From contig JAPPES010000026.1 in assembly GCA_028824125.1 (NCBI GenBank), positions 1-64,000 on the forward strand: 64,000 nucleotides of DNA, read 5' to 3'. The position numbers and the translations under genes were made by a program. Below the pieces are notes generated by a model, which saw only the letters and a program-made list of their open reading frames with translations, was not told where the DNA came from and did no database searches. This document shows positions 3,227 to 52,157 of this stretch, in pieces; within the stretch, counting starts at the first letter, position 1, and each line of letters opens with the position of its first letter. This DNA is from Candidatus Poribacteria bacterium (GTDB lineage: Bacteria > Poribacteria > WGA-4E > WGA-3G).

Positions 3227-4573
3227 CTATACCCAAGATGATTTGAGTTCATGCACTTTCAGTGATGCCAATGTAACTGCGCCGCCTTCTGCATAAATCC
3301 CGATGTCAGCATTATCAAGATCGGGCAAAAAATAGGAGGTCATTGAGAGCGCACCTGCATTGCCAAACGCCTCAATAGAGATACGATCAACTAAAATCTG
3401 TAGCTGAATTTTGCCATCTTGTGGCGCAAGCGGGCCGCTCCTTTCAAGGAACGTTAACTGCTTCTCAGCGACATCGTATCGGACATCTTGACCGCGGATA
3501 TTGAAACCTACAGCGGAGGCATCATTCAGTTCTATTTCTGCGCGGATATCAAACAGTTCACCTGTTAACCCCGCAAGCAGGTTTTCATCGGGATTAAGTG
3601 TAACATTGCTCCAGGCGTGCGTCCAATCATGGATATTTTCAATTTCTGCCACCGGCTCGCGGTACATGCGGATGCCTTCTGGTGTCGTCCGAAGTGTCAA
3701 CACGCATGGAAAACTCATCTGCTGATTAAACGGCATTTCTGGTGGATTGCTACCATTCATCCAAGCAATTTGTATGCGTCGACCATCGGATTCAGGGACG
3801 TCGCTCCAAGTTTGTGCGGCGTAAAAGTTCGCGCCGAAATCTGCCCGTTGTGATTCACCATCTGGCGTGAAGGTGGTACCATCAAAATCACCGACATAGT
3901 ATTTTCCACCGGCTCCCCAGAAAATCCATTTAGTATTCTCAGGGTCGCCATCAACAGCAAGTTCAAAAATATCTGGGCATTCTCCATCTGGAATCTTAAT
4001 GTCGGAGAGACGTTCCCACTCTTTTAGGTTTGTAGAACCAAAAAAGGTAAAATCATTTCCATCGAGAAAAAGTGTCATTACCCATTTTTGCGTAGGTTCG
4101 TGCCAAATTACTTTTGGATCGCGGTTGCTTGCGACAATATGTTCAATGACAGGATTGCCTTCATATTTTGTCCAACTCCGTCCACGGTCGTTGCTATAGG
4201 CGATGCTCTGTGTAAACGGTACTTTCTCTGGGGCGTGGCTACCAGCAGATGTATAAAAAGTTACGAGTACTGCCTCGTCACTAGTCTGAAAACCACCCGT
4301 GTTGTTCCAGTCCACTACGCCGGAACCGGAGAAAATTGTGCCGAGTTCGTCAGGATGGATAGCGTGCGGTAGCTGTTTCCAGTGAACAAGGTCGGGACTA
4401 ACGGCATGCCCCCATGTCATGTTGCCCCAATTGATACCAAAGGGGTTGTGTTGAAAGAAGAGATGATATTCTCCTTTGTAATAGATCAATCCGTTTGGAT
4501 CGTTGGTCCAGTTAGTTTTCGGTGTAAAATGGAACTGTGGACGATACGTTTCTTTGTAAGCAGTTTGAATCAT
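3227..4573 (-). CDS. Glycoside hydrolase family 32 (levanase/invertase-like)
   Basis: This hydrolyses beta-fructosides such as sucrose, levan or inulin by a retaining mechanism. All three GH32 catalytic blocks are present: WTNDPNG with nucleophile D25, RDP at 151-153 (transition-state stabiliser D152), and ECPD at 198-201 with acid/base E198. Residues 10-310 form the five-bladed propeller, and 320-448 the beta-sandwich domain, ending in an ALSMTSYFLPD-type strand. No signal peptide is visible, so the enzyme is probably cytoplasmic and would act on imported oligosaccharides. An SD-like AAGGAA precedes the ATG. An inverted repeat (GTAAGTGT...ACACTTAC, about 4594-4621) lies upstream and could be an operator. 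Substrate specificity within the family is not decidable from sequence. Confidence 0.92.
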   Translation of the reverse strand: MIQTAYKETYRPQFHFTPKTNWTNDPNGLIYYKGEYHLFFQHNPFGINWGNMTWGHAVSPDLVHWKQLPHAIHPDELGTIFSGSGVVDWNNTGGFQTSDEAVLVTFYTSAGSHAPEKVPFTQSIAYSNDRGRSWTKYEGNPVIEHIVASNRDPKVIWHEPTQKWVMTLFLDGNDFTFFGSTNLKEWERLSDIKIPDGECPDIFELAVDGDPENTKWIFWGAGGKYYVGDFDGTTFTPDGESQRADFGANFYAAQTWSDVPESDGRRIQIAWMNGSNPPEMPFNQQMSFPCVLTLRTTPEGIRMYREPVAEIENIHDWTHAWSNVTLNPDENLLAGLTGELFDIRAEIELNDASAVGFNIRGQDVRYDVAEKQLTFLERSGPLAPQDGKIQLQILVDRISIEAFGNAGALSMTSYFLPDLDNADIGIYAEGGAVTLASLKVHELKSSWV

Positions 4574-4740: not shown

Positions 4741-4768
4741 ATGCACCCGTTTTGTCGTCTCACGCGTC
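4741..4768 (+). promoter_or_regulatory. Candidate ECF-type promoter of the first sigma-propeller gene
   Basis: ATGCACCC (4741-4748), a 16-base spacer and CGTC (4765-4768, within GCGTC) lie 51 bases before the start codon. The same pair of boxes occurs before both other sigma-propeller genes (8086-8114 and 52129-52157). A CGTC -10 box at this spacing is typical of ECF sigma promoters. Confidence 0.65.
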
Positions 4769-4819: not shown

Positions 4820-7795
4820 ATGAAAAACGATGATGCTGAACTGATTCAACGCACGCTTGCAGGCGATAATAACGCCTTCTCTGAATTAGTGGAGAAATAT
4901 CAAAAGCAGGTACATGCGCTTGCTTGGCGAAAAATAGGCGACTTTCACACCGCTGAAGATATTACGCAGGATACTTTCCTCAAAGCATACCAAAGACTCC
5001 ATACACTCAAAGAACCGCATCGGTTTGCGGGGTGGCTCTATGTTATTGCGTCACGTCGATGCCTTGCATGGTTCCGCAAAAAGCGTCTGCAGAAACAAGT
5101 ACTGGAAAATATAGGGACACCCGTGACAAACAGAGATGCTTATTCAAGGCATGTCGCAGAAGAACAAGCAAAAACTATTGATGAGGCACAACAAGAAGTC
5201 GTCAAAAAGTTGCTTGAAACGTTGAAGGAGAGTGACCGCATCGTCATCACGCTTCACTACTTTGGCGAGATGACGTGTGAGGAGATGAGCGAGTTTTTAG
5301 GTGTGTCGGCAAATACAATCAAAAGTAGACTCCGCCGCGCACGCAACCGCTTGAAAAAGGAGGAACCGATGATCCGGGAGGCAATTAGCAACTTCCAAAT
5401 TTCACCGAACCTTACTAATAATATTATGCAAGAAGTCGCACGACTTAAACCAGCTGCACCTTCTGGCAGTAAACCTTTGATCCCTTGGGTGATAGGTGCT
5501 GCGGGTACAGTTTTGATTGCACTGATGTTTGGGATTGGTGGTCAATACTTAGCGCGTTTCCAGCAGCCTTATAGTTTGGATGCACAGACTGAGATGACAG
5601 TTGAACTTGTTGATGCCCCGATTGTGCAAAACCTTGATATGCAGCCGGATGTTCGGCGTGAGCTTGGCAATCTGAATGCACTTGGTGAAAGCGATAACCG
5701 CGGAGAAAAACCCGATGAGGGATTATTATCTGCCGCGCAGGTAGAAGGAGAAGACATGTCTAATCAAAAACAACAGTGGATTCATGCAAAACGGGTGAAA
5801 GGTGCACCTGCATGGAATCTATACGCTACCCCTGAAGGGGAGCTATACGTCATGACAAATTATTTTTCAGTCTATAAATTATCAGCAGATGGGAAAACGT
5901 GGCAACACGTCCGCGGTATTGAAAAACTTAAAACTTCTTCGGGGGGTAGACTACCAATAACCAAGTGGAACAATACTTTGTATCTTGTGCCATATAATGA
6001 ACTCTTTACTTCTACGGATAACGGTGAAACTTGGGATTTACTCTATTCTTGGAAAGGGGAAAAGTACAGGTCTGCAATTAAATTGGCACCAACGGAGCAA
6101 GCGTTTTACCTCGCTTTCCAGAGCGGTGTTCTTCGATCTGAAGATACCGGAAAGACATGGGAAGACATAAGCGATGAATTGACGGTAAGAATTGATTCTT
6201 TTATTGAGATTCAGAACACGCTTTTTGCTGGAACACCTAATGGTTGTTACCGTTACAGTGGTGACAGTTGGAAACGGTTGGAATTCCCTGTACCAATTCA
6301 AAGGGTTGTTTCAACTGCATCGACTGACGGAAAACTCTATGTTGTTGCAGGGTGGGGTTGGGCAGTGTCTAAAGAGTTAAAACGTACTTGGGGAATATTC
6401 CGATCAACGGATCTCGGAGATTCTTGGCAAGATATTACACCTACAAATTCTTGGCATTTAAACGGTCATCCACCTAATATCACACTTATTGCTGCTGGTG
6501 AAACACTTTTGGCAATGGAACAAGGGATGGTGCGTTCAATTGACGGCGGAGATACCTGGCTGAGTCCACAGGCATATAACGCATCACCTCCAATGAGTAA
6601 TCTTTCCTCATTTGCGGTAGTGAAAAAGGACACAATTTATATCGGGAGTCATGACGGACTCTATTCTTCTAATAATCGCGGTGAATCGTGGCACAAGATG
6701 AACATTAGGCAAAAGGGTGGAGATATATTTAATCTAATCACTTTTAAAAAGACTGGTAAAGCTAAAAGTCCATCTGCAGTTATCTATGCAAGAGTAGATG
6801 GAGGAACAATATCGGGAAATGAGATTCAAAAAACTGATGACGGCGGCAATTCTTGGGAACCCGTTCAAATAGCGATACCAATGACAGATCCTCACAGAAG
6901 AACACCACCGAGCATTACCCAAATTGTTAAATACGGTGGTCTTCTCTACGCAAAGGGTAAGAAATTTGTCCCACGCGAAACGCTTATTTATCGCGTATCT
7001 GGAGATGGTAGGACGCTTGTGCCGATTCAGGGTATGCCGGTTTTTAGTTCAGAAAAGTTAGATGACCAGATACCTAAAGGACATGCTCTTGGCGCAACCC
7101 AGTTTTTTAAACAGTTGGCAGAACCTAAATTAATGGCAGGGCCTAAATTATTTGGGAAGGGTGAAGACCTTATTCAAGCCGGGTTGCGTGGCGCGTTTGC
7201 TGTTGACAACGACACATTTTACGTTGAATACAACTTCAAGCTATTCCGATGGGAACCCGGTGATACAGAATGGTACGACACTGGACTGGAAGAAACCATT
7301 GAGCTTTCAGCGTCCCGCCGACAGTCTGTAGTATGGAGAGACATAGACAGATTCAAACTTGCAGTTTCAGGTAATACTGTCTATGTTGGAAAACGAGATG
7401 GGCACCTCGTTGTATCGTTTGATAGGGGAACTAATTGGATTGATCTCACTCCAGCACTGCCATTTCCAGTCAAAACTTTCAAAGAGATTCTGGTTGCTGG
7501 GTCCACCGTTTATGTAGCAACGGACGGAGGTATCATTACATCAGATGAAGGAAGGCATTGGCGTACCGTCATCGGTTCTGATGGGACGAATCTCATCATG
7601 GAACGCTTGGCTGTTGATGGAGCAATGCTTTATGGCGTTACCAAAGATACAGGTATCTATCGTTTGGAAAATGGAACTTGGGAACATGTTGTTTCAGAGA
7701 TACCTGACAGAGTGACCTCTCTTGCTGTTGATGGAGATACCTTATACGTAGGCACAGAAGACAACGGCATGCTTCATTTCAGTCTTGAAGAATAA
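4820..7795 (+). CDS. ECF sigma factor fused to a transmembrane segment and an extracytoplasmic BNR/sortilin-like beta-propeller (copy 1)
   Basis: Residues 1-182 are a complete ECF sigma factor: region 2 at about 6-75 (DITQDTFLKAYQRL) and region 4 at about 130-182, with helix-turn-helix MSEFLGVSANTIKSRLRRA. Residues 183-220 form a proline-ending linker (NFQISPNLTNNIMQEVARLKP). Residues 221-241 are one hydrophobic span. The remaining 750 residues carry about eight Asp-box (BNR) motifs of the type STDNGETW, SEDTGKTW, STDLGDSW and TDDGGNSW, which mark beta-propellers. Topology should be sigma part inside, propeller outside. No anti-sigma gene is adjacent, so I infer the tethered propeller senses a surface ligand and controls the sigma domain, perhaps through proteolytic release. 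SD GCGGAGG precedes the ATG. The protein is a close paralogue of 8202-11207 and 48932-52090. Confidence 0.85.
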   Translation: MKNDDAELIQRTLAGDNNAFSELVEKYQKQVHALAWRKIGDFHTAEDITQDTFLKAYQRLHTLKEPHRFAGWLYVIASRRCLAWFRKKRLQKQVLENIGTPVTNRDAYSRHVAEEQAKTIDEAQQEVVKKLLETLKESDRIVITLHYFGEMTCEEMSEFLGVSANTIKSRLRRARNRLKKEEPMIREAISNFQISPNLTNNIMQEVARLKPAAPSGSKPLIPWVIGAAGTVLIALMFGIGGQYLARFQQPYSLDAQTEMTVELVDAPIVQNLDMQPDVRRELGNLNALGESDNRGEKPDEGLLSAAQVEGEDMSNQKQQWIHAKRVKGAPAWNLYATPEGELYVMTNYFSVYKLSADGKTWQHVRGIEKLKTSSGGRLPITKWNNTLYLVPYNELFTSTDNGETWDLLYSWKGEKYRSAIKLAPTEQAFYLAFQSGVLRSEDTGKTWEDISDELTVRIDSFIEIQNTLFAGTPNGCYRYSGDSWKRLEFPVPIQRVVSTASTDGKLYVVAGWGWAVSKELKRTWGIFRSTDLGDSWQDITPTNSWHLNGHPPNITLIAAGETLLAMEQGMVRSIDGGDTWLSPQAYNASPPMSNLSSFAVVKKDTIYIGSHDGLYSSNNRGESWHKMNIRQKGGDIFNLITFKKTGKAKSPSAVIYARVDGGTISGNEIQKTDDGGNSWEPVQIAIPMTDPHRRTPPSITQIVKYGGLLYAKGKKFVPRETLIYRVSGDGRTLVPIQGMPVFSSEKLDDQIPKGHALGATQFFKQLAEPKLMAGPKLFGKGEDLIQAGLRGAFAVDNDTFYVEYNFKLFRWEPGDTEWYDTGLEETIELSASRRQSVVWRDIDRFKLAVSGNTVYVGKRDGHLVVSFDRGTNWIDLTPALPFPVKTFKEILVAGSTVYVATDGGIITSDEGRHWRTVIGSDGTNLIMERLAVDGAMLYGVTKDTGIYRLENGTWEHVVSEIPDRVTSLAVDGDTLYVGTEDNGMLHFSLEE

Positions 7796-8085: not shown

Positions 8086-8114
8086 ATGCACCCATTTTCC
8101 GGCTAACCCGCGTC
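8086..8114 (+). promoter_or_regulatory. Candidate ECF-type promoter of the second sigma-propeller gene
   Basis: ATGCACCC (8086-8093), a 17-base spacer and CGTC (8111-8114, within GCGTC) repeat the element found at 4741-4768 and, on the minus strand, at 52129-52157. The surrounding spacers are otherwise unlike one another. Confidence 0.65.
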
Positions 8115-8201: not shown

Positions 8202-11200
8202 ATGAAAAAGAATGATGTTGAATTGATTCGCCGCATCCTTAATGGTGATGAACCTGCTTTCTCTACGCTTGTTGAAAAATATCAAAAGCGGGTTCATGCC
8301 CTCGCTTGGCGAAAAATCGGTGATTTCCACATCGCTGAAGAGATTACACAAGATACCTTCCTAAAAGCGTATCAGAAACTTGCAACCTTGAAGAAACCGC
8401 AACGGTTCGCCGGATGGCTTTATGTGATTGCAACACGCTGCTGCCAAGCTTGGCTACGAAAAAAGCATATACAGACCGAAACATTAGAGGAAATAGATAG
8501 TGACGAGTTAGAACCGGAGGCGTATTCTCGATACGTTGCCGAGGAGAAAGCGAAGGTAACCGTTGAAGCACAACGCCAAGTTGTCAATAAGCTTCTTGCC
8601 ACATTACCAGAAAGTGAGCGGACGGTGATAACGCTTCACTACTTTGGCGAGATGACGTGTGAGGAAATAAGCGAGTTTTTAGGTGTATCCGCAAATACAA
8701 TTAAAAGTAGACTTCGCCGCGCACGCAACCGCTTGAAAAAGGAGGAACCGATGATCCGTGAGGCAATTAGCAACTTCCAAATTTCACCGAACTTTACTGA
8801 AAACATCATGAAAGAAATCAATCGTCTTAAACCTGCTGCACCTTCTGTCAGTAAACCGGTTGTACCGTGGGCAGTTGCTGCTGCATCAAGTTTAGTTTTA
8901 ATTCTGTTGATGTTCGGTATGGGCAGCCAATACTTAGCACGTTTCCAGCAGCCTTATAGTTTAGATGCGCAATCCGAAAGAGCAATTGAACTCGTTGATG
9001 CGCCTATTTTGCTTAATTTTGAAACAAAACCCGATGTCCGCCATCAACTTGTGAATGCAAATGCGCTTGATAAAATCGATAATAATGGTCAGAAACCTGA
9101 TGAGGTTTTATCGGCTGCCGCCCAGATAGAAGGAAAAGATATTACTGCCGCCAAACAACAGTGGATTCAGTCTGAACCTATCAGAGGAAGCGAGGCGATT
9201 AGTTTACTTGCAACACCAGAGGGTGAAGTTTACGCTCTTGCTGATAGGAATATCTATAAATTGGAAACCGATGGGCAAGGATGGCGACATATCTTTGATA
9301 CTACTTTACTGGATACTGACTATGAGGGTGAGGCAGTTATGAAAAAGTGGGACAATACACTCTATCTGATACTGTCTACAGACCTCTTCGCTTCAAAAGA
9401 TGATGGTAAAACATGGAACTTAGTTTACTCATGGCCAAGAGATCGTTGGTATCCTTTAGAATTGGTCCTAACAAAACAGGCTTTTTATATTCTCTTTTAT
9501 ATAGGTAACGATGTTCTTCGTTCTGAAGATTCTGGCAAGACATGGGAGGCAATTAACGGTCAGATAGATAGATTCATTGCTTCAATTGTCAATATACAGA
9601 GCACGTTGTTTGCAAGGACAAGATATGCCCTCTACCGCTTTACCGATGACAACTGGCAACGTTTGGAATTTCCAGTGTCTGTTGGAAAAGTTCGTTCAGT
9701 TGCAGCAGCTGAAGAGAAACTATATGTTGTGGCAGAGGCGACTGATGATGTGTTAGATTCCGGTAAAGTATCTCAAGGGCAGGAACGTGGTTGGTGGATA
9801 TTTCGATCAACTGACCTCGGTGAGTCTTGGGATGATATAACGCCAACAAACGCTTGGCCCGTAAAAGGATTGCCGCCCCGTCTCCAGCTTATTGCAGTTG
9901 GTGATACACTTCTGGCGATGGAGCATGGTATGGTTAGCTCTTCTGATAGTGGAAACACATGGTTTACATCACAATTATCGGGTCCTACTCCTTTAATCCA
10001 TCCTGATATAAACTTTAAGGCAGCAGCAGTAAACGAAGGTGCTTTTTATGTTAGTGGAAGAAACGGACTGCATCGTTCCACTGATAGTGGTAAATCATGG
10101 AATCAGGTCAATATCACTACGGATAAGAGCAAAATAGAGGCTTTAATCGCGTATAAAAGGAACGATAAAAGGCATGACATACCTCCAACGCTCTATGCGA
10201 GATATGAAGGAAGGATCGCAAAAACTTCCGATGAAGGCAAGTCCTGGAATGCTGTTCAAATAGAAATTCCGATGACGGCCCCCAATAGAGAAAAACCGCC
10301 AGATATTACGCATATTTTCAAATCTGATGGTGTTCTGTACGCAAAGGGGGGCGGCTCTTTTCACAGAAGCAAAATACATATATACCGCGTATCTACAGAT
10401 GGTAATATGCTTGTGCCGATTCAAGGATTGCCAATCTTCGACTCACTGGAATCATATAGCGAGTCGGGCGAAATATTGGATAACCGATTTAACGTGTCAG
10501 ATAAATCGGTCTTTGAACAGATGCAAGAGAAGATTCCTGGCGCAACCCAGCTCCTCAAACAGTTGACACAAACAGACCAAGAAAATCGGTTTAAACTTTT
10601 TAGACTCGCCCAGCGTGGTCCGTTTGCTGTCAGTGGTGACACATTCTATATGGAATACAATTATAAACTATTCCGATGGAAACCCGGTGATACTGAATGG
10701 TACGACACTGGACAAGAAGAAACTTGCGAATTAACTTTGGAAATAGCAGGAAAAGATCCTAAGCTTGCTGTTTCAGGGAATACTGTCTACTACGGTAAAC
10801 GGGATGGACACCTTGTTCAATCCTTTGACGCAGGACATAATTGGAAAGATATCCCTTTGAACTTTATGTTTTCTACACCTATTGAAACCTTCAAAGATAT
10901 CGTGTTTGCGGATTCTACGGTATATGTGGCAACGGACGTAGGTGTCGCTGCATCAAATGAAGGAAAACATTGGCGTCCCATCACTGACTCTGAAGGAACG
11001 ACTCTTATCATGGAGCAATTAGCTGTTGATGGCGCAACGCTTTATGGCGTTACTGAAAACACAGGTGTCTATCAATTAAAAAGCGGCACTTGGGAGCAGG
11101 TCGTTTCAGAGATACCTGATAGTGTAACCTCCCTTGCTGTTGATGGAAACGCGTTATACGTTGGTACACAAAACATCGGTATGCTTCATTATACTCTTGA

Positions 11201-11207
11201 TCAATAA
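8202..11207 (+). CDS. ECF sigma factor fused to a transmembrane segment and an extracytoplasmic beta-propeller (copy 2)
   Basis: It has the same architecture as the gene before it: ECF region 2 (residues 6-75), region 4 (130-182), linker, membrane span at 221-241 and a 760-residue propeller part with Asp-boxes such as SKDDGKTW, SEDSGKTW, STDLGESW, SSDSGNTW and STDSGKSW. The two proteins align from end to end, so they arose by tandem duplication. The DNA for the end of region 4 and the linker (8636-8790) is almost identical to 5258-5412, while the propellers have diverged much more. That fits conserved DNA recognition with changing sensor specificity. SD GAAGGTGACC precedes the ATG. The C-terminus (TSLAVDGNALYVGT) is shared by all three paralogues. 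Confidence 0.85.
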   Translation: MKKNDVELIRRILNGDEPAFSTLVEKYQKRVHALAWRKIGDFHIAEEITQDTFLKAYQKLATLKKPQRFAGWLYVIATRCCQAWLRKKHIQTETLEEIDSDELEPEAYSRYVAEEKAKVTVEAQRQVVNKLLATLPESERTVITLHYFGEMTCEEISEFLGVSANTIKSRLRRARNRLKKEEPMIREAISNFQISPNFTENIMKEINRLKPAAPSVSKPVVPWAVAAASSLVLILLMFGMGSQYLARFQQPYSLDAQSERAIELVDAPILLNFETKPDVRHQLVNANALDKIDNNGQKPDEVLSAAAQIEGKDITAAKQQWIQSEPIRGSEAISLLATPEGEVYALADRNIYKLETDGQGWRHIFDTTLLDTDYEGEAVMKKWDNTLYLILSTDLFASKDDGKTWNLVYSWPRDRWYPLELVLTKQAFYILFYIGNDVLRSEDSGKTWEAINGQIDRFIASIVNIQSTLFARTRYALYRFTDDNWQRLEFPVSVGKVRSVAAAEEKLYVVAEATDDVLDSGKVSQGQERGWWIFRSTDLGESWDDITPTNAWPVKGLPPRLQLIAVGDTLLAMEHGMVSSSDSGNTWFTSQLSGPTPLIHPDINFKAAAVNEGAFYVSGRNGLHRSTDSGKSWNQVNITTDKSKIEALIAYKRNDKRHDIPPTLYARYEGRIAKTSDEGKSWNAVQIEIPMTAPNREKPPDITHIFKSDGVLYAKGGGSFHRSKIHIYRVSTDGNMLVPIQGLPIFDSLESYSESGEILDNRFNVSDKSVFEQMQEKIPGATQLLKQLTQTDQENRFKLFRLAQRGPFAVSGDTFYMEYNYKLFRWKPGDTEWYDTGQEETCELTLEIAGKDPKLAVSGNTVYYGKRDGHLVQSFDAGHNWKDIPLNFMFSTPIETFKDIVFADSTVYVATDVGVAASNEGKHWRPITDSEGTTLIMEQLAVDGATLYGVTENTGVYQLKSGTWEQVVSEIPDSVTSLAVDGNALYVGTQNIGMLHYTLDQ

Positions 11208-18140: not shown

Positions 18141-19457
18141 CTAATCAGTTCTAAGTGCTTCAACAGGTGTAAGTTTTGCCGCCTTATGGGCGGGATAAAG
18201 CCCAAAGAATACACCAATAGCGACAGATACAAGCAACGCAATGAACATTGTCTCAAATGAAATCACTGAGGGCCAATTACTGCCTTCCCACACAAACTTG
18301 GAAATGAGAGCAGCTGTACCTTGCCCCATAAATACCCCTAAGATTGAGCCCAAAATTCCTCCCACTAAGGTGAGGACAGATGCTTCAATCAGGAATTGGG
18401 TGATGATATCATTGAAGGTTGCACCGAGTGCTTTTCGCAAACCAATTTCTTTCGTGCGGTCAGTTACAGATACGAGCATAATATTCATCACACCGATACC
18501 AGCAACCATTAATGCGATACCCGCGATACCACCCATCAACGCTTTCATGACTAAACCGACTTTACCGGCAGTAGCCAATTCCTCTTCAGCCGTCCAATAG
18601 TTATATTCTTCACCTGTGTTGTTGTGTATTCTGCCTAAGATATGCTTAGCGTCTGCAATTACTTGTGGAATTTCATCTACATCTACTGCTTCAACGCGGA
18701 TTCGTTCAACATCTTGACGCCCCTTAAAACGTTCTTGGAGTGTAGTGATTGGAATAATAAACCTATCATCCCAACCAGTCGTATCCATTGCGTCGCCCTT
18801 CTCTTCCATTACACCGATAACTTTAAGACGCACCTCATACAAGCCACTTCTACCGCGCCAATAAGAAGGACGTGAAGCTTTAATCTCTTTCCCAACAGGG
18901 TCTTCGTTAAGAAATACCTCTTCCGCAATTTTTGAGCCGATCACAGCAACGCTGCTGGCAGATTCTACCTCTTCCGGGTTGAAAAATCTACCGCTTGACG
19001 TGTACCAGTTATGAGAACGATCGTATCCAGCCGTTGATGCAACAATTCGGGATTCCTTTTTACGCCCTTTGTAACTCACGCTCCAACCGGGCATATCATC
19101 TTCTGCAACAACGTCAATGATACCGCGGGCACCCTTCATGATTTCAAAAGCGTCATCTGTTTCCAAATGCTCTGCACGGTTCCTACGCCAACGACTCCTG
19201 CCCCTGACGGCTTCACCCGCTGCCCGACTTAACGTACCAGACTGCTTATCCCAATCATCACGATAGATTTCAATGATCTTTGTACCGCCTGTCCGTTCAA
19301 TCTCGCGTAGCACCATAGCAGAAGACCCATCACCAACAGAGACCATACTGACGACAGACCCAACACCAACAATAATGCCTAAAATTGTCAGACTTGAACG
19401 TAATGGGTTCCGCCGCAAACTGGTAATGCCTAAAATGATACATTCAAATAGATTCAT
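18141..19457 (-). CDS. MacB-like ABC transporter permease (1, nearest the adaptor)
   Basis: MacB_PCD plus FtsX architecture: TM1 at about 18-42 (LTILGIIVGVGSVVSMVSVGDG), a periplasmic core of about 240 residues, then three TM segments after about 310, with MNIMLVSVTDRTKEIGLRKALGA as the coupling region. The protein ends in TPVEALRTD, the usual FtsX tail. There is no nucleotide-binding domain in the chain, so it depends on a separate ATPase, and none lies nearby. At 438 residues it is the most divergent of the four and has its own RWRRNRAEHLE insert. SD AGGAGG lies directly before the ATG, 14 bp after the preceding gene's stop, so the two are co-translated. Confidence 0.88.
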   Translation of the reverse strand: MNLFECIILGITSLRRNPLRSSLTILGIIVGVGSVVSMVSVGDGSSAMVLREIERTGGTKIIEIYRDDWDKQSGTLSRAAGEAVRGRSRWRRNRAEHLETDDAFEIMKGARGIIDVVAEDDMPGWSVSYKGRKKESRIVASTAGYDRSHNWYTSSGRFFNPEEVESASSVAVIGSKIAEEVFLNEDPVGKEIKASRPSYWRGRSGLYEVRLKVIGVMEEKGDAMDTTGWDDRFIIPITTLQERFKGRQDVERIRVEAVDVDEIPQVIADAKHILGRIHNNTGEEYNYWTAEEELATAGKVGLVMKALMGGIAGIALMVAGIGVMNIMLVSVTDRTKEIGLRKALGATFNDIITQFLIEASVLTLVGGILGSILGVFMGQGTAALISKFVWEGSNWPSVISFETMFIALLVSVAIGVFFGLYPAHKAAKLTPVEALRTD

Positions 19458-19471
19458 TTTTTAATATCCTC

Positions 19472-20773
19472 CTACTCAGTGCGCAATGCTTCTATCGGGG
19501 AAAGTGCAGACGCTTTTAGCGCAGGATAGAGTCCAAAAGAGATACCTATCAACGCAGAAAATGAAACCGAAATAATAACCCACTGCATAGAGATAACAGA
19601 GGGCCAATCTGGCACCATCTTGACAATCTTCACAGCGAGAAGTGCCATGCCTTCACCCGCAAGATAACCTAACCCAACCCCTATTGCACCGCCTATAACA
19701 CACATCACAATGGACTCAATCAAGAACTGTAGCATAATATCTAAACGTTTCGCTCCGAGTGCCTTCCGCAGACCGATTTCACGCGTGCGTTCAGTTACAG
19801 CCACCAACATCATGTTCATTATGCCGATACCACCAATAAGCAAGGAAAATCCAGCAATGCTACCCAACGCTATTTTTATCACTCTACTGATTTTATCTAA
19901 CTGTGCCATACCTTCGCGCATATCTCTAAGATCAAAGAAGTCATCTTGATTCTTGTGTCGTTTTCTCATTACTTCTTTCACCTCTTCTATTGCTTTCGGA
20001 ACATCGTCAACGGTGTTGGCTTGAACAGATAACATGACAATATGATCGTTACCGGTAAAACGTTCTTGCGCAGTTGTTAGCGGCAGAAACACCATATCGT
20101 CTAAGTTCCATCCGAATCTAAGACTTCTACCCCGCGGCATCATCGTTCCTACGACAGTAAAACGTTCAGCGATCCGGACCTGATCCCCTCTGCCGTATCT
20201 ATCAAATCTACCGCCACCTCTACCGATTTTGATTTCTTGGTTTATTGGAGATTTGTTACCGAATAGGTCAAGCGCGACCTCAGTTCCTAAAACACAAACT
20301 TTCGCTTTGTTTTCAATATCCTCATCGGAAATAAAACGTCCTTCCTGAATTCCCCAGTCCATCGCTTCCGAAAATGAGGCGTTCACACCGTTATAACCGC
20401 TGCGAGTTTCAGATCCATCAGCAGCTTGAATTTGGACACCCCGCCATTCTGGAATTCGGGGAACAACCACTTTTACGGATGGGCATTCTGCTTCAATCGC
20501 TAATACGTCTTCGTACTTGAAGTATTCGTTGCTACGGTTCGGCATCCAACGTCTACCGACACGCCTGTAACTGCTCCGATACATCGTGAACTGATTGACG
20601 CCGCCTAATTTTTGTGCATCTTGCAGCACAATTTCCTTAGCACCGTCACCGATAGATATCATCGCAAGCACAGAGGCAACCCCGATAATAATACCCAACA
20701 TCGTCAGCAATGATCGTAGTTTATTGCTGCGAATTGCTGAAATCCCAACGGATAACCCCTCAAATATGCGCAT
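19472..20773 (-). CDS. MacB-like ABC transporter permease (2)
   Basis: A 433-residue MacB/FtsX permease. TM1 contains LTMLGIIIGVASVLAMIS, the periplasmic core has Arg/Gly-rich loops (GRGGGRFDRYGRG), and MNMMLVAVTERTREIGLRKALGA precedes the C-terminal TM segments. The end, LSPIEALRTE, is typical. It is closest in sequence to permeases 3 and 4, so the block grew by tandem duplication, and the periplasmic loops differ most. The membrane and coupling regions are nearly invariant, which suggests a common ATPase and different cargo or subunit contacts. GGAG lies close before the ATG. A 201-bp gap separates it from permease 3, with no clear terminator. Confidence 0.88.
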   Translation of the reverse strand: MRIFEGLSVGISAIRSNKLRSLLTMLGIIIGVASVLAMISIGDGAKEIVLQDAQKLGGVNQFTMYRSSYRRVGRRWMPNRSNEYFKYEDVLAIEAECPSVKVVVPRIPEWRGVQIQAADGSETRSGYNGVNASFSEAMDWGIQEGRFISDEDIENKAKVCVLGTEVALDLFGNKSPINQEIKIGRGGGRFDRYGRGDQVRIAERFTVVGTMMPRGRSLRFGWNLDDMVFLPLTTAQERFTGNDHIVMLSVQANTVDDVPKAIEEVKEVMRKRHKNQDDFFDLRDMREGMAQLDKISRVIKIALGSIAGFSLLIGGIGIMNMMLVAVTERTREIGLRKALGAKRLDIMLQFLIESIVMCVIGGAIGVGLGYLAGEGMALLAVKIVKMVPDWPSVISMQWVIISVSFSALIGISFGLYPALKASALSPIEALRTE

Positions 20774-20974
20774 CTCTTGTCTCCAAAGACTTTCAAAGAT
20801 TAACCTTTTATACCTTGTAATTTAGACAGAAAAAAGCAGATAAGGTTCGGACAATTGAGAAAAGAGGGCAGTACAAACTCCTTCCTTAATTTGCCAAGAG
20901 TTTACTGATGTTGTTTTGACGTTAAAATTGGGAAATGGGTTTATTGTAAAAAATAATCTGCAGCGGATAGGGAT

Positions 20975-22276
20975 TTAATCTGTACGCAATGCTTCTATAG
21001 GTGAAAGCGAGGACGCTTTTATCGCAGGATACAACCCAAATGAGATACCAATCAACGCTGAAAAGGATATAGAAATTAACACCCATTCCGTTGAAACAAC
21101 TGAAGGCCATTCAGGCACAATTTTGGCGATTTTTACCGCGAGAAGTGCCATACCTTGTCCAGCAAAGACCCCCAAAGCTATGCCTATCAATCCGCCTAAA
21201 CCGCACATCACAACAGCCTCCATTAAGAATTGAAGTAGGATGTCAAATCGTGTTGCACCGAGTGCTTTTCTAAGTCCTATCTCACGCGTCCGCTCAGTGA
21301 CAGCGACAAGCATCATGTTCATTATACCGATGCCACCAACAAGCAGCGAAAAGCCAGCAATACTCCCCAGCGCTATTTTTATCACCCTACTGATCTTTTC
21401 CAACTGTGCCATGCCTTCACGCATATCAAAGATTCTGATGAAATCGTCTTGATTTTTATGCCGCTTACGGATAACAGCTTTTACCTCTTCAATCGCCTTC
21501 GGAACATCTTCAACAGTGTTTGCATAGACGACAATATCCTGAACCCTATCATCGCCAGTAAAACGTTTCTGAGTAGTTGTTAACGGCATAAAGACAAGGT
21601 TATCATAACTCCATCCGAATCGGAGACTTCTCCCTCTCGGTTTCATCGTGCCTACAACCGTAAAACGCTCTGTGTACCGCTTCTTGTCCCTTCGTCCCCA
21701 TCGGTCATAACGTCCATCACCTCTTGCAATTTTAATTTCCTGTCCCAGAGGGGATTTGTTACCGAACAGAGAAGCTGCTACCTCATCTCCGAGTACACAG
21801 ACGGTCGATGCATTTTCTACGTCTTCGTCCGTAATGAATCGACCTTCTTGAATATCCCAGTCCATTGAAGTATGGTAGGTAGCATCTACCCCATTATAAC
21901 CTGCGCGGGTTTGCGCGCCGCCTGCAGCTTCAATTAACGCACCTCTCCACTCTGGGATCCGTGGAGTCACAGCTTTCACGGATGGACATCCCGCTTCAAT
22001 TGCTAACACATCGTCATACTTCATGTATTCATTACTACGGATTCTTACCCATTGCGTGCCTACCCGTTTATACCATGTGCGGTAGATAGTAAACTGGTTT
22101 GCTCCACCAAGTTTTTGTGCATCACGTAACACAATTTCTTTAGCACCATCACCGATTGAGATCATGGCAAGCACAGAGGCGACACCGATGATAATACCGA
22201 GCATCGTCAGCAGCGAACGCATCTTATTTGAGCGAATAGCGGTAATCCCGACAGCAATTGCTTCTATTATTCGCAT
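20975..22276 (-). CDS. MacB-like ABC transporter permease (3)
   Basis: A 433-residue paralogue with the same four-TM layout and the same coupling helix (TERTREIGLRKALGAT). In the periplasmic domain, GDGRYDRWGRRDKKRYTERF replaces the loop of its neighbours. As in copies 2 and 4, the N-terminal helix is followed by GDGAKEIVL and a conserved QKLGGANQFT. The weak SD (GAGAAG) and the gap of about 210 bp from copy 4 suggest it may be translated less efficiently or have its own promoter. It heterodimerises or homodimerises in the inner membrane by analogy with MacB. Which pairs form is unknown. Confidence 0.88.
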   Translation of the reverse strand: MRIIEAIAVGITAIRSNKMRSLLTMLGIIIGVASVLAMISIGDGAKEIVLRDAQKLGGANQFTIYRTWYKRVGTQWVRIRSNEYMKYDDVLAIEAGCPSVKAVTPRIPEWRGALIEAAGGAQTRAGYNGVDATYHTSMDWDIQEGRFITDEDVENASTVCVLGDEVAASLFGNKSPLGQEIKIARGDGRYDRWGRRDKKRYTERFTVVGTMKPRGRSLRFGWSYDNLVFMPLTTTQKRFTGDDRVQDIVVYANTVEDVPKAIEEVKAVIRKRHKNQDDFIRIFDMREGMAQLEKISRVIKIALGSIAGFSLLVGGIGIMNMMLVAVTERTREIGLRKALGATRFDILLQFLMEAVVMCGLGGLIGIALGVFAGQGMALLAVKIAKIVPEWPSVVSTEWVLISISFSALIGISFGLYPAIKASSLSPIEALRTD

Positions 22277-22487
22277 ATTATCTTCTCAAAACTTTAGAAA
22301 TATATTTGCAATGGAAACCAATTTATCAGGTGTGCTTTGTAAACGCGCTGATCCCAAAATCTCATTTATATGTAGAATCTACGAAAAATCAACTTAAGGT
22401 GTTGATTTCAATTAGACGTGATTAGCTAAATAGGTTTATTATTTCCTGGACGGGTGAGAATAGAAGGCAGGTTTTGAACTAAAACAT

Positions 22488-23789
22488 TTAATCTTTTCGC
22501 AGAGCCTCAATAGGAGATAGCATAGAGGCTTTTATTGCAGGATACAACCCAAAAAATATTCCAATCGCAGCAGAAAATAAAACCGAAATCAAAACCCACT
22601 GTGCAGAGACAACTGAGGGCCATTCAGGCACAATTTTTGCGATCTTGACTGCCAGAACTGACATACCTTCTCCTATAAAGATGCCCAATCCGATACCTAT
22701 AATTCCTCCTACAGCACACAGGATAACAGACTCAATGAGAAATTGGAACATTATATCAAACGGTTTTGCACCAAGCGCTTTCCGCAAACCAATCTCGCGA
22801 GTACGTTCAGTGACAGCAACCAACATCATATTCATTATGCCGATACCACCAACGAGCAATGAAAAACCAGCAATACTGCCAAGCGCAATTTTTATCATTT
22901 TGCTTATTTTTTCCAGCTGTCGTATACCCTTCCGCATCTCATAAATTTTGACAAAATTATCTTCGCCTTTGTGACGTTTACGGATTACCTGTTTCACCTC
23001 GCGTACGGCATTAGGAACATCTTCAACGGAATTGGCATAGACTACGATTTCCTGGATATGATCATCACCAGTGAAACGTTCTTGGGTAGTTGTTATTGGG
23101 AAAAAGACCATGCTATCAAAACTCCACCCGAAACGTAGACTTCTACCCCTTGGCATCATTGTACCTACAACTGTGAATCTTTCGGTTATACGTCTGCTAC
23201 GTCTCTTTCCACGATGATCGTAATATTTTACACGCCGAGCCATTTTTATCTCCTGCCCAAGAGGAGACCCGTTACCAAATAGATCAGCTGCAACTTCATC
23301 GCCAAGCACACAAATTTTAGTTGCGTTTTTAACGTCTTCATGTGTAATAAATCTACCCTCTTGTACTTTCCAATCCATTGCAGTTTTAAAAGATGCGTCT
23401 ACACCGTTATACCCCGCACGCGTTTCAGAACCACCTGGAGCTTGGATTAACATGCCTTTCCAATCTCGTATCCTTGGCGCAACATCACTTACCGCCGAAC
23501 ATTCTGATCCTATCGCAAGCACATCACCGTAGTTGAGATATTCCTTCGTACGGATTGGAATGTTGTGTTTTCCCAATTTTTTAGTGGACTTGCGATATAA
23601 AGTAAACTGATTCGCACCACCGAGTTTCTGTGCATCACGCAACACAATCTCTTTCGCGCCATCTCCAATGGCTATCATTGCAAGCACCGCCGCGATGCCG
23701 ATTATTATGCCAAGCATTGTTAACAATGATCGCATTTTGTTGGCGCGTATCGCGGTAACCCCAATTGATAGCCCTTCAATTAAACTCAT
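22488..23789 (-). CDS. MacB-like ABC transporter permease (4, first in the cluster)
   Basis: A 433-residue MacB/FtsX permease, most upstream in transcription. Its domains match copies 2 and 3. The periplasmic loop is lysine/arginine-rich (KYYDHRGKRRSRRITERF) and the end is LSPIEALRKD. Upstream (23790-24121) there is only a repeat and a terminator for the opposite neighbour, so no ATPase gene heads the cluster. The four copies plus the adaptor look like one expanded exporter family whose LolD/MacB-type ATPase is encoded elsewhere. An alternative is a stand-alone mechanosensing FtsX-like role, which seems less likely with a MacA-like adaptor present. Confidence 0.88.
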   Translation of the reverse strand: MSLIEGLSIGVTAIRANKMRSLLTMLGIIIGIAAVLAMIAIGDGAKEIVLRDAQKLGGANQFTLYRKSTKKLGKHNIPIRTKEYLNYGDVLAIGSECSAVSDVAPRIRDWKGMLIQAPGGSETRAGYNGVDASFKTAMDWKVQEGRFITHEDVKNATKICVLGDEVAADLFGNGSPLGQEIKMARRVKYYDHRGKRRSRRITERFTVVGTMMPRGRSLRFGWSFDSMVFFPITTTQERFTGDDHIQEIVVYANSVEDVPNAVREVKQVIRKRHKGEDNFVKIYEMRKGIRQLEKISKMIKIALGSIAGFSLLVGGIGIMNMMLVAVTERTREIGLRKALGAKPFDIMFQFLIESVILCAVGGIIGIGLGIFIGEGMSVLAVKIAKIVPEWPSVVSAQWVLISVLFSAAIGIFFGLYPAIKASMLSPIEALRKD

Positions 23790-31928: not shown

Positions 31929-32120
31929 ACTAAGCAGGGAGCAGGCATACTCCGCTGAATACCCACTAAAGGCGCATGAGGCGTTGATTCGTTCAGACAA
32001 TTCAACGCGTTTACAGAACGCGCTTACTACTGACTGCCGATAACCAATAATTATACTCTATTTAGCGTTAACTTGTGCTATCATGTAGGTCAAAAAACCC
32101 CTCCAAAAAGGAAATTTCTC

Positions 32121-48931: not shown

Positions 48932-51900
48932 CTATTCGTCAAGCATGAAGCGTAGCACACCCCGTCCGAATGTCCCAACATAGATCGTATTTCCATCAAC
49001 ATCAAGACAGGTAACAGGATATGGAATTTCTGGCGTGACTTGCTGCCATGTACCAGAATTCTTGTTCAACTGATATATTTTTTGCTTGGACTCGCCATAA
49101 ACTGTTGTGTCATTCACTATCAGTCTATTCATAACGAGCGGTGTTCCTTCAGTATCTGTAAGTGTGTGCCAATCAGTACCGTTGCTTGACCGTACAACAC
49201 CTTTATCTGTTGCTACATAGACACTTTTCCCAACGAAAGTTATTGCATTGAAACGTTCAACAGAAAATGGCAGATTTGGCGTAATATCGTTCCAAGTGTC
49301 GCCTTCATCAAACGATCGCATAAGGCGTCCATCCCGTTTGCCGACGTAAACAGTTTTTCCTGAAACGGCAAACCATAAATTCTTAGCAATGACAAATTTG
49401 GAATTTAAGTCTATATCAAAAGGTCCACCTATATCCGCTATTCCCGTGTTGTACCAATTCAGGGTTCCAATACGCCATCTAAAGAATTTGTTTTGGTAAT
49501 TTACGTAGTAAGCCGTGTCTGTAACTGTGAGACTTCTGGGTCCGGGCACAATCAAAAATTCGGTTTTGTGCGTTTTGTTTTGACTACGCACAATCCACTC
49601 AGACAAAATTTGGCTCTTTGTCGAACCGAGTGCATTTTTCAAAACAGGGACTCCTGGAATATCTGCGAAACTATTTCCTTCGGAAGTCAATCGCAAAAAA
49701 CGAAATGTTCCTTCTCTATCTTTACTTGCATAGAGTTCTCCATTGAATTCTTCAATGTGTATGAGATTACTCGTATCGCTGGAAAAGGGTATCCACGATT
49801 CACCACCATCAATTGAATACACAAGTCCTGTTTCTGTCTTGTCGGGCTGTGTAAGTGTAAGTCCCAATTTTCGATCAATGTATGAATACACAAGTCCTGT
49901 TTCTGTGCTTGCATAGAGAATCCCGTTAAGTACAATTAATTGTTGAATTTCTGTATTCACAAGTCCAGTATTAAATTGATGCCACGACTCACCGTTATCA
50001 GTTGATCGATGAATTCCGTATATTCCACTTGTAAAGAAAGTACTTGCATTCGATAGCACTGCAGCGGTAGCACTACTTATTTTTTTACTTGCATGAACTG
50101 AAAATGTCCACGCTTCACCACCATCAATTGAGTAGAAGTGGTCCTCACCGTCTATCACCATCACTTTTTCTCCGGATGCGGTAATCTTGAGCATTGGATT
50201 TGCCATTTTTGCCCATACTATTTCTGAGATAGGATAAGTGTCTTCTGCTAATTTATTTACTCGTGATTCTTTCTTTGAAGAACGACGGTTCTGAAGCTGT
50301 TTCTTGTCAGGAGAATCATGCATCGGAGTTATAGATTTCCATGAATTACCACGGTCAGTTGAGTGAAAAAGGGACCACGCGATTCCCTTGCCTTCATTTC
50401 CCCATAATTCTATCCAGCTTGGCAATTCCTTATCAAAAGCTGGATCAACAGTTATGATGGTACTTTCTGCACCGACTTTATATAATGGATCATCAGCAAA
50501 TATCACCCATCCCAATTTTGCTGCAACATAGAGATGGTTTTCTGTAGCTATTAATGCCGCGATATCCAGTTTCTCATCTTGTGCATCCTCAGGATTGATA
50601 GGCAATTGCTCCCACGTATCTGAATTGAGGCGATAGAGTCCTTTATCGGTACCCACAAAGACGGTACTTTCAATAGCGGCAATTGCGCGAATTTTCTTGT
50701 CTTTTAGGCCTTCAGGCAATGGAGTCCACGATTTACCTACATCATCCGTTCGGAATACGCCGTTAGAATATGCCAGGTAGATCACCATACTGCTTTGTGT
50801 ACCTGGGATTCCATCAGTTATTACTATGTCAATAGGCTCACTTTTTGGAGACTCACAAAGCACTACCCATGTTTCACCTCTATCTGTGGAAGTTAAAATG
50901 TCTGTGTTGGTAGCAAGATAAAGTGTATCCTGCCGTTCTACTACGGGCCACCACGTTGGTATAGGTGTCAGTAAAGTGTGTGAAGGCCCCTTAATGTTAT
51001 TAATGTGTTTCCACGCAGTACCATCATCTGTGAGTCTGTATAGACCTTGCCGTGCACCTGCGTACACGTCCCCACGGGTTGTTGTGAAGAGACCAGATAC
51101 TGAACCACCTTCCGGTCCTTTTGTTTGAATCCACTGCGGTTTTGCGTTTGAGACTTCCACTTCGTCCGCTTGTGCTGCAGCGAATAGCGGATCATCAGGT
51201 TTCTGTCCTACCCCATTGCTCTCACCTGTTAAATCTATATGTCCGATCTGATTTCTAACTGCAGGTTTTGCGGGAGAATCAATAACAAGCTGCGCTTCCG
51301 ATATTTCAATCGTCCGTTCTGATTGTGCGTTTAAGTTGAACGGCTTCTGAAAATTTTTTAGGCGTTGTGTGCCAAGTCCCATCAGCAATAGGACTAAAAC
51401 AGCAGAGGCAGCAGACATTGCTAATGGCACGAGTGGTTTACTGCCCGAAGGTGTTATCGGATTAAGTCGTGAAATTTCCTTCATGATGTTCTCTGTCATT
51501 TGTGTCGGCAGTTGGAAACTGCTAAGATTTTCTTTAATCATTGCTTCCTCTTTCTTTAGTCGGTTGCGGGCGCGACTAAGACGGCTCCTCACGGTATTTG
51601 GGGATACACCGAGAAACTCGCTAATAGATTCACAGGTCATTTCTCCAAGATAGTGGAGCGTCATGACTGTTCGTTCACTTTCGGGTAATTTTTTAAGCAA
51701 ATCTCTCACCAGTTCACGCCGAATTTCGTTAGCATCTGCCTCTCGTTGTTCTTCCATGTATTGTGTATATGCCACTTGGTCCACCTCTCTGCTATCTACG
51801 GTTTCTAAGGATTGCATCGGCAGGCGTTTCTTTCGGAGCCACTCATAGCACAAGCGAGTCGCAATAACATAGAGCCATCCAGAAAACAGGTTGTGGTTTT

Positions 51901-52090
51901 TCAAAGTACCAAGTTTTTGGTATGCCCTCAGAAAAGCGTCCTGTGTAATTTCCTGTGCGATATGAAAATCACCGATTTTCTGCCACGCCAGCGCGTGTAC
52001 GCCCTTTTGATATTTTTCTACTAAGGCGGTGAACGCTGATTGGTCACCGTCCAATGTTCGCTGAATCAGTTCAGCATCCTTCTTTTTCAT
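48932..52090 (-). CDS. ECF sigma factor fused to a transmembrane segment and an extracytoplasmic beta-propeller (copy 3)
   Basis: Third member of the family at 4820 and 8202, on the opposite strand. Sigma region 2 (6-75), region 4 (130-182, SISEFLGVSPNTVRSRLSRA), linker (SFQLPTQMTENIMKEISRL) and membrane span (221-241) sit at the same residue numbers as in the other two. The propeller part (242-1052) has Asp-boxes STDRGETW, STDRGNSW, SIDGGEAW, STDNGESW and SIDGGESW. It has grown by a 69-bp tandem duplication (direct repeats at 49814 and 49883), giving TETGLVYS twice, 23 residues apart. The start ATG 52090 (GGAGGA upstream) is preferred to one 45 bases earlier. It stands alone, with a strong terminator. 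Confidence 0.85.
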   Translation of the reverse strand: MKKKDAELIQRTLDGDQSAFTALVEKYQKGVHALAWQKIGDFHIAQEITQDAFLRAYQKLGTLKNHNLFSGWLYVIATRLCYEWLRKKRLPMQSLETVDSREVDQVAYTQYMEEQREADANEIRRELVRDLLKKLPESERTVMTLHYLGEMTCESISEFLGVSPNTVRSRLSRARNRLKKEEAMIKENLSSFQLPTQMTENIMKEISRLNPITPSGSKPLVPLAMSAASAVLVLLLMGLGTQRLKNFQKPFNLNAQSERTIEISEAQLVIDSPAKPAVRNQIGHIDLTGESNGVGQKPDDPLFAAAQADEVEVSNAKPQWIQTKGPEGGSVSGLFTTTRGDVYAGARQGLYRLTDDGTAWKHINNIKGPSHTLLTPIPTWWPVVERQDTLYLATNTDILTSTDRGETWVVLCESPKSEPIDIVITDGIPGTQSSMVIYLAYSNGVFRTDDVGKSWTPLPEGLKDKKIRAIAAIESTVFVGTDKGLYRLNSDTWEQLPINPEDAQDEKLDIAALIATENHLYVAAKLGWVIFADDPLYKVGAESTIITVDPAFDKELPSWIELWGNEGKGIAWSLFHSTDRGNSWKSITPMHDSPDKKQLQNRRSSKKESRVNKLAEDTYPISEIVWAKMANPMLKITASGEKVMVIDGEDHFYSIDGGEAWTFSVHASKKISSATAAVLSNASTFFTSGIYGIHRSTDNGESWHQFNTGLVNTEIQQLIVLNGILYASTETGLVYSYIDRKLGLTLTQPDKTETGLVYSIDGGESWIPFSSDTSNLIHIEEFNGELYASKDREGTFRFLRLTSEGNSFADIPGVPVLKNALGSTKSQILSEWIVRSQNKTHKTEFLIVPGPRSLTVTDTAYYVNYQNKFFRWRIGTLNWYNTGIADIGGPFDIDLNSKFVIAKNLWFAVSGKTVYVGKRDGRLMRSFDEGDTWNDITPNLPFSVERFNAITFVGKSVYVATDKGVVRSSNGTDWHTLTDTEGTPLVMNRLIVNDTTVYGESKQKIYQLNKNSGTWQQVTPEIPYPVTCLDVDGNTIYVGTFGRGVLRFMLDE

Positions 52091-52128: not shown

Positions 52129-52157
52129 GACGCACCTTAGATCATAAATTGTTGCAT
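52129..52157 (-). promoter_or_regulatory. Candidate ECF-type promoter of the third sigma-propeller gene
   Basis: On the minus strand, ATGCAACA (52157-52150), a 17-base spacer and CGTC (52132-52129, within GCGTC) lie 38 bases before the start. These are the same two boxes as at 4741 and 8086, in an otherwise unrelated spacer. Confidence 0.65.

Follow-up and report, generated by a model that had tools for sequence, protein, structure and literature searches.

Fusions of an extracytoplasmic function (ECF) sigma factor to a membrane span and a sensor, and the ECF-WD40 proteins of Planctomycetes, are already known. In the IutY hybrid of Pseudomonas putida (group ECF243), a sigma domain, a span and a periplasmic domain form one protein, from which Prc and then RseP release the sigma domain (PMC5411451). 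In ECF52 proteins, a carbohydrate-binding module follows the membrane region (PMC5826349), and release by proteolysis is expected for ECF48, ECF52 and ECF53 (PMC8999054). In Planctomycetes, ECF57 and its relatives combine ECF and WD40 in one protein, and the Gemmataceae hold many young ECF paralogues, with some ECFs found in detergent-soluble fractions (PMC8999054, PMC8567305). More remotely, the conflict systems of multicellular bacteria join a constant signalling core to diverse acquired modules, typically in an inactive form (PMC7159879). Here we describe a fusion of this general kind encoded at positions 4820-7795 of a 64,000-nucleotide stretch ("the window") of Candidatus Poribacteria contig JAPPES010000026.1 (assembly GCA_028824125.1; genome of 5.59 Mb in 162 contigs). 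It belongs to a family of 50 in the same genome, whose members share a promoter motif and whose outer domains have been exchanged between sigma modules.

For Poribacteria themselves, a single-cell genomics paper reports abundant WD40 domains, and the word "sigma" is absent from its main text (PMC3909097). No title on sigma-factor fusions in this phylum was found in the open-access literature searched, where two papers combining "Poribacteria" and "ECF" were unrelated by title.

A sigma factor, a membrane span and a propeller in one polypeptide

The gene at 4820-7795 (+) is an open reading frame (ORF) of 991 residues that starts with ATG; the opposite strand, read in register, is crowded with stop codons. 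Its product consists of an ECF sigma domain, a linker, one predicted membrane span, a disordered stalk and an Asp-box propeller part that resembles glycoside hydrolase family 74 (GH74) and is likely double. An earlier note on this DNA had proposed an ECF sigma factor, a single span and a propeller in one polypeptide, and hidden Markov model searches against Pfam, hydropathy and AlphaFold2 agree on this architecture.

The Pfam search matched Sigma70_r2 at residues 23-89 (E 2.9e-15) and Sigma70_r4_2 at 128-178 (1e-12), both beyond the curated cut-offs, within a sigma part of about 180 residues whose nearest solved structure by sequence is Bacillus subtilis SigW (5wuq, E 1.2e-22). The outer part matched Sortilin-Vps10 (2.3e-14), DUF6242 and PQQ_2, and a simple pattern locates eight Asp boxes in the protein. 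Among the Pfam families listed, Reg_prop reached only E 0.08, and neither a histidine kinase nor WD40 was matched. Hydropathy (Kyte-Doolittle, 19-residue window, cut-off 1.6) gives a single hydrophobic span at residues 221-239. The AlphaFold2 model (mean predicted local distance difference test score, pLDDT, 72.7) contains the helices of sigma region 2 (residues 6-89) and region 4 (139-190), a helix over the span (223-247, itself with pLDDT below 50) and a mostly beta part from 320 to 991; the stretch 205-317, span included, has no confident structure. The outer portion, put at 750 residues in the earlier note, is a propeller part as proposed, although smaller: the folded part comprises about 670 residues and stands behind a stalk of about 70. 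The parts of the gene are as follows.

4742..4768 (+): predicted ECF promoter of the gene, TGCACC-N17-CGTC; its -10 element ends 51 bp ahead of the ATG
4820..5365 (+): ECF sigma domain (regions 2 and 4), residues 1-182; from Pfam, the SigW match and AlphaFold2
5366..5479 (+): cytoplasmic linker, residues 183-220, with the family motifs LTxNIMxEI and PSxSKPLxPW; without a Pfam match
5480..5542 (+): single predicted membrane span, residues ~221-241; from hydropathy and AlphaFold2
5543..5776 (+): juxtamembrane part and disordered stalk, residues 242-319, with FQxPYSLDAxSExTxE directly after the span; in the case of relative L123 the exchange point lies within or beside it, near residues 276-300
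5777..7792 (+): outer sensor, tandem Asp-box (BNR/sortilin-type) beta-propellers, residues 320-991; from Pfam, AlphaFold2 and structure matches

Folded alone, the outer part was modeled with pLDDT 79.7 and a predicted template modelling (TM) score of 0.76. Its best structure matches are GH74 xyloglucanases (Foldseek E ~1e-20 to 1e-22, TM-scores only ~0.3-0.5), enzymes built on two Asp-box propellers; next come the periplasmic domains of the Bacteroides hybrid two-component sensors BT4673 and BT4663. Since TM-scores over these matches are only ~0.2-0.5, the outer part is likely to form two propellers, with their mutual orientation unsure. A GH74 profile also matches (E 1e-19), in an alignment that covers the catalytic aspartate sites poorly; GH74 enzyme activity was considered and set aside, as the fold fits but the catalytic sites could not be placed in the alignment. 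A single-sequence search returned no solved structure for the propeller at E 0.01, and a viral structure library gave generic propeller matches.

A family of 50 sigma-linked proteins

Searching the genome with the 4820-7795 protein returned 82 matched places, around which 50 family ORFs were extracted, with sigma parts 51-100% identical to the query; eight other ECF-like ORFs in the same stretches are clearly separate (22-33% identical). The earlier note treated a single gene, which is real. It overlooked two paralogues in the window, at 8202-11207 and 48932-52090 (-), and with them the family of 50, its common promoter motif, its exchangeable outer domains and the 9 of 49 members without a predicted span. 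The two further copies and their promoters are listed here.

8087..8114 (+): predicted ECF promoter of the tandem paralogue; from the motif search
8202..11207 (+): tandem paralogue, 1001 residues, of the same architecture as 4820-7795; from ORF, Pfam and hydropathy
48932..52090 (-): third paralogue, 1052 residues from the ATG at 52090 (the start in the ORF list is a GTG at 52135); from ORF, sigma match and hydropathy
52129..52156 (-): predicted ECF promoter of the third paralogue; from the motif search

Counts of 49 omit C107_10137p, a broken gene whose start is not definable, and the 48-row alignment (A1) additionally lacks C132_46487m; C102_3072p ends early at an in-frame TAG and was used only up to this stop. 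Pfam results were inspected individually for 20 of the 48 proteins, for the window copies and for one more, and through family tallies for the others. Sigma regions 2 and 4 are retained in all 48 scanned members (E up to 1e-5), and 40 of 49 have a predicted span. The outer domains are diverse: Sortilin-Vps10 occurs in 19 and WD40 in 15 of the 48, and those read singly include two C-type lectins, single members with AhpC/TSA, peptidase M61 and prolyl oligopeptidase S9 domains, an "inactive" M16 domain, a helix-turn-helix domain and a weak beta/gamma-crystallin match below the curated cut-off. The M61 member is without HExxH, the AhpC/TSA domain has no cysteine, and the S9 member shows GYGYGG where, by eye, GxSxGG is expected, with a GxSxG string about 40 residues further on (828). 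Judged by the catalytic motifs that we assume for these families, the three enzyme-like members look more like binding modules than enzymes, their catalytic motifs apparently lost.

All 73 relatives found in named genomes belong to Poribacteria; that scan spanned all phyla represented but detects close relatives only, and our other genome searches covered Poribacteria. The linker-span-stalk signature (residues 183-300) is present in 67 of 84 genomes of the phylum: all 58 of the same family (ours among them), where copy number ranges from 1 to at least 54, and 9 of the 26 others, with 1-3 copies. Residues 1-300 were matched in 34 of 39 genomes, own included. Because of this and the low ratio of nonsynonymous to synonymous substitution rates (dN/dS) of the sigma domain against that of relative L123 (0.08), the architecture of the 4820-7795 protein is beyond chance. 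Two alignments include relatives: A2, which combines the three window copies with 20 relative ORFs (from the 73 loci) covering 90% or more of the protein, and A3, with 17. Short family members of 399-424 residues (L174-L180 and L184-L189; 13 ORFs) are common among Poribacteria. A span is not predicted in eleven of these and is marginal in the other two (1.66 and 1.68 against the cut-off of 1.6); the C-terminal 220 residues of three short members, scanned against Pfam, gave no good match (one weak, DUF3108-like).

A second, distant ECF type, 22-26% identical, occurs on contig C52 in four copies of 840-900 residues; the one scanned is fused to WD40 repeats, the others look alike, and inspection by eye showed no span beyond the sigma part.

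L048:2681-5200 (-): second ECF type
L039:125-2824 (-): second ECF type
L039:7757-10450 (-): second ECF type
L048:39-2585 (-): second ECF type

Proposed signalling mechanism

The sigma domain must be cytoplasmic to act and the protein has a single span, so the propeller is predicted to lie outside the cell, as the earlier note proposed; the charge balance around the span agrees weakly. Likewise in line with that note, no anti-sigma gene was recognised among the neighbours in the ORF lists by eye, with five ORFs named by NCBIfam. On balance, we think it probable that these proteins are transmembrane receptors and transcription factors in one polypeptide, built from interchangeable parts and acting through release of the sigma domain.

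We propose that the one span keeps a SigW-like ECF sigma domain at the inner side of the cytoplasmic membrane, in what would be the off-state, and that a flexible stalk joins the span to the outer ligand-binding double propeller. The sigma-linker-span module would be constant, with the outer domain (Asp-box, WD40, C-type lectin or a seemingly dead enzyme fold) swapped by recombination. Binding or loss of a ligand outside would expose the stalk to a site-1-type cut, after which a site-2 (RseP-type) protease would cut within the span. The freed sigma domain would then bind RNA polymerase and fire promoters of the form TGCA[AC]C-N17/18-CGTC, those of the family genes first, with positive feedback and possibly cross-activation as the outcome. 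The earlier note knew of no described mechanism for a large Asp-box sensor outside the membrane. The two-step cutting of IutY (PMC5411451) and the carbohydrate-binding module of ECF52 (PMC5826349) speak against that view. The IutY precedent, together with the expectation in a review for ECF48, ECF52 and ECF53, favours proteolysis, and we hold with moderate confidence, by analogy, that the sigma domain would be released by regulated cleavage.

Several observations weigh against this mechanism. Cleavage, location and ligand are all inferred, and the positive-inside bias is weak (on average 3.0 lysines and arginines before the span and 1.7 after it in 40 paralogues). A scan for an anti-sigma domain in the linker (residues ~181-320 of the three window copies and L123, Pfam E up to 10) found none, with only DUF3858 at E 0.21 in the third window copy, and is limited by the HMMER filters, which drop most weak matches. 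The genome has one RseP-size, full-length match to an M50 (site-2) protease and one shorter; M50 is near-universal (14 of 14 control genomes), so its presence discriminates nothing. The span-less members include the Asp-box protein C144_5696p, the WD40-like C52_7646m and the S9 member with its PD40 propeller, and three orthologues of C144_5696p in other species (L181-L183) are likewise span-less. A propeller on a sigma factor therefore need not be outside.

The main rival is conformational control: the protein would be held at the membrane and work while tethered, the ligand altering the exposure of the sigma domain to RNA polymerase. The protein shows no recognisable protease site, and sigma region 4 could be masked by an adjacent helix at 196-209 (pLDDT mostly below 50). 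The nine span-less members must be controlled without a membrane cut, and a review lists this kind of control for other ECFs that carry extensions (PMC8999054). Against this stands IutY, a sigma-span hybrid of described mechanism that is released by proteolysis, and we regard tethered action as unlikely, though a serious contender.

A promoter motif shared by the family

The motif TGCA[AC]C, 17-18 bases, CGTC lies upstream of many family genes. Its exact form occurs within 300 bp upstream of 21 of 49 (200 dinucleotide shuffles: mean 0.015, maximum 1), and a relaxed form in the last 150 bp before 34 of 49 (shuffles: mean 1.2, maximum 6); neither was found on the reverse strand. Among 69 of the 73 relatives (left out were L171 and L173, with less than 50 bp upstream, and L192 and L195 (fragment)), the relaxed form precedes 62 and the exact form lies within 300 bp of 35. 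The short members L174-L180 and L184-L189 carry the exact motif 55-74 bp ahead of the start, and a fragment, L193, has it too. The promoter of the window gene fits the ECF type (AAC-like -35, CGTC-like -10, 16-17 bp apart). In seven species, conservation of the DNA upstream of this gene begins shortly ahead of the -35 element and extends to the start codon; the -35 and -10 blocks vary little or not at all, and the DNA farther upstream is mostly not alignable.

Genome-wide, a longer consensus with at most three mismatches gave 20 + 10 sites (control 0), and 25 of these 30 best sites precede family genes when their places are compared with gene starts. Across 23 genomes of the same bacterial family, ours among them, there are 342 sites of the gap-17 form versus 6 in the control; 29 such sites, mostly the best per genome, were inspected as loci, and 24 precede a family ORF.

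The motif would be the ECF promoter of the family. Its form is that of the ECF promoter class, and B. subtilis SigW has a similar promoter. Reading by the family's own sigma factors would be in line with common ECF autoregulation, and the motif before 34 of 49 genes, with 25 of 30 best sites at family genes, suggests that the sigma part is probably active and auto-activating. Three points count against so simple a picture. The short exact pattern is barely above control genome-wide (63 sites versus 49), 15 of 49 family genes lack even the relaxed motif, and the patterns were derived from the upstream regions of the family itself, which means that the tests are not blind and finding family genes is partly circular.

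The motif could instead mark control by a separate sigma factor or regulator, family members not recognising their own promoters. Which protein reads it we infer from association, and the genome holds more than 20 further low-identity matches to the sigma part alone. The number of sites tracks family size across 39 genomes (Spearman 0.89), partly since sites precede the genes, and 16 more distant genomes have 3 gap-17 sites versus 2 in the control, although 11 of them carry lower-scoring relatives; both observations make a separate regulator doubtful.

At the consensus used, few direct targets seem to lie beyond the family. We considered an outside regulon and rejected it: only 5 of the 30 best sites are not before family genes, and two of these (C16, C34) have no plausible ORF. 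The site at G000:C73:25641-25672 (+), L204, lies 332 bp ahead of an ORF that by eye encodes a MoxR-like ATPase, a possible non-family target. Those at G000:C115:74713-74743 (-), L223, and G000:C102:1815-1845 (+), L219, precede genes for proteins that look exported by eye, possible accessory genes close to family members; one of the two lies some 1.2 kb ahead of a family gene, the other after one. In seven more regions, drawn from the 63 short-motif sites, one site is followed by a 119-residue membrane protein, two regions hold family genes (one broken) and four have no ORF of more than 60 residues starting within 250 bp. A variant of the promoter consensus, with several sites like TTATGCACCTATTTGGGTAAAAAAATG.GTCT, occurs near-identically many times in one sister genome (G005) and may belong to a mobile or repeated element.

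Conserved sigma modules and exchanged outer domains

The sigma domains are under stronger constraint than the outer parts: dN/dS is 0.06-0.13 in eight of nine pairs (the ninth is saturated, and dS, the synonymous component, is high in some of the eight), versus 0.21-0.40 for the outer parts in all nine. It is very improbable that the sigma domain is a relic serving as a mere cytoplasmic anchor for surface adhesins or enzymes. The outer domains are indeed large and diverse and resemble lectins, peptidases and glycosidases, but both sigma regions are kept in every scanned member with a dN/dS of about 0.1, ECF-type motifs precede most family genes and relatives (34/49 and 62/69), and the three enzyme-like members seem to be without catalytic motifs.

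Outer sensors have been exchanged as a unit between sigma modules in several cases. At the locus of the window gene, the upstream neighbours are shared with L125, L126 and L128, where the GH32-like neighbour is 99, 97 and 92% identical, YjbQ 99, 96 and 88%, and the sigma domain 97, 92 and 89% identical to that of the window gene; the outer part there aligns at only 21-26% and is WD40 versus Asp-box in the window gene. L124 and L127 show the same contrast between sigma and outer part; their GH32-like neighbour was not found within the 4.0 and 1.6 kb examined upstream. At L123, only the edge of the GH32-like gene is in the examined DNA, 3.8 kb upstream, with another family gene between. None of these six relatives (L123-L128, sigma at least 89% identical) carries the outer domain of the window gene at 75% identity or more.

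In the second case, the sigma domain of L123 is 91% identical to that of the window gene (dS 0.52), whereas the outer part of L123 matches at 89% identity (dS 0.13) the one in C9_35076p, a paralogue in the window's genome whose own sigma domain is 66% identical to L123 (dS 2.89); the switch in L123 lies near residues 276-300. In the third case, C114_14228m and C17_4973m share a sigma domain (99%, dS 0.03) over outer parts that are 47% identical (dS 1.11). The neighbours C23_27794p and C23_30838p, with sigma domains 92% identical, carry WD40 and a C-type lectin, respectively.

On a tree of sigma domains, the outer class changes at least 14 times in 49 rows (shuffled mean 22.6, minimum 18), Asp-box and WD40 interchange at least 6 times in 36 rows (shuffled mean 11.6, minimum 8), and the span changes at least 7 times in 56 rows. 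The tree was made by a quick method, with 18 of 55 inner forks open, and outer-class labels were hand-assigned from Pfam results. As the class counts fall below the shuffles, outer class is inherited, yet often replaced.

Three observations temper the case for exchange. Among six relatives with an outer counterpart of at least 75% identity in our genome, four are congruent with their sigma match and two are mosaic. Congruent control pairs also differ 2.1- to 4.4-fold in dS between sigma and outer part, which weakens the dS contrast, so we relied on dS for exchange only in cases of large contrast or of a change in fold class. Tandem arrays may assemble poorly in metagenome bins and so yield false chimaeras; three separately deposited assemblies agree at the locus of the window gene. 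Fast divergence rather than exchange, to which the higher outer dN/dS and the four congruent pairs of six would point, is hardly credible as the source of the sister-species differences, given that the fold class itself differs at one locus (L125, L126, L128) and that the L123 outer part matches C9_35076p so much more closely than the sigma domain does.

Other genes in the window

The GH32-like fructosidase gene (3227-4573, -) is divergent from the sigma gene and is kept upstream in three sister species. Two tandem stand-alone WD40-type proteins (30066-31928 and 32073-34001, +) have signal-peptide-like N-termini by eye, and their starts (LPEGAKARLGKG and like) resemble the WD40 outer domains of the sigma family. 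Four genes in tandem at 18141-23789 (-) are, by eye, ABC-transporter permease-like (MacB/FtsX-like); three closely resemble each other, and the adjoining gene is, again by eye, membrane-fusion-protein-like. The ORF at 56404-62175 (+), of 1923 residues, resembles by eye two UvrA proteins fused head to tail.

Comparison with known systems

The family suggests, tentatively, a receptor repertoire of Poribacteria in which a constant, auto-activating sigma-span cassette carries plug-in outer domains, dead enzymes and lectins among them. Paralogues, and perhaps species too, would exchange these domains, and dozens of ligands on the surfaces of sponge, microbes or phages would feed into one promoter class. 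Input (the outer domain) and output (sigma and promoter) seem to evolve apart, with natural swaps at one locus. For a sponge-associated bacterium, some 50 switches with swappable sensors may amount to quickly re-wirable sensing of the outside, and they offer a concrete candidate for how such bacteria read their surroundings. The natural chimaeras lend themselves to asking how a tethered sigma factor is switched and which part of linker or stalk carries the signal, and the family as a whole to asking how cross-talk is avoided or exploited among dozens of sigma factors whose promoters are similar.

The protein resembles IutY in having an ECF sigma domain, one span and a domain that is extracytoplasmic (here by prediction) in one polypeptide. 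IutY differs in its CSS anti-sigma periplasmic domain and its partner gene for an outer-membrane receptor; in the present protein, the outer part presumably acts as the sensor itself. We recognised no partner gene of this kind next to it, and the genome has about 50 copies. No CSS (FecR-like) anti-sigma domain was matched among the best 25 of 27 Pfam families (E up to 1) or in the post-sigma stretch. The ECF52, ECF48 and ECF53 proteins of Actinobacteria (e.g. SCO4117) likewise join a sigma domain to a membrane span. Their extension has a zinc-finger domain, and phylum and outer domains differ too; no zinc-finger anti-sigma domain between sigma region 4 and the span was matched among the Pfam families listed or in the linker scan. 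Compared by published descriptions, the present family has, beyond the ECF57 type, Asp-box double propellers, lectins, enzyme-like domains and a common promoter motif. The Bacteroides hybrid two-component systems BT4663 and BT4673 also use a large periplasmic double propeller to sense for a membrane-borne regulator, whereas the output here is a sigma factor and the propeller type differs. The core of the conflict systems, in contrast, is based on MoxR-vWA, a GTPase or a protease.

The ECF group that contains these proteins may already have been named. Within the open-access literature searched, what is new is a large family in Poribacteria, the presence of Asp-box double propellers as sensors linked to sigma factors, the common motif and the exchange of sensors at a fixed locus. 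ECF fusions are known singly; here, one lineage has seemingly built a large recombining receptor family, which, if the proposed reading is true, would correspond in bacteria to the families of variable surface receptors, its direct output being transcription.

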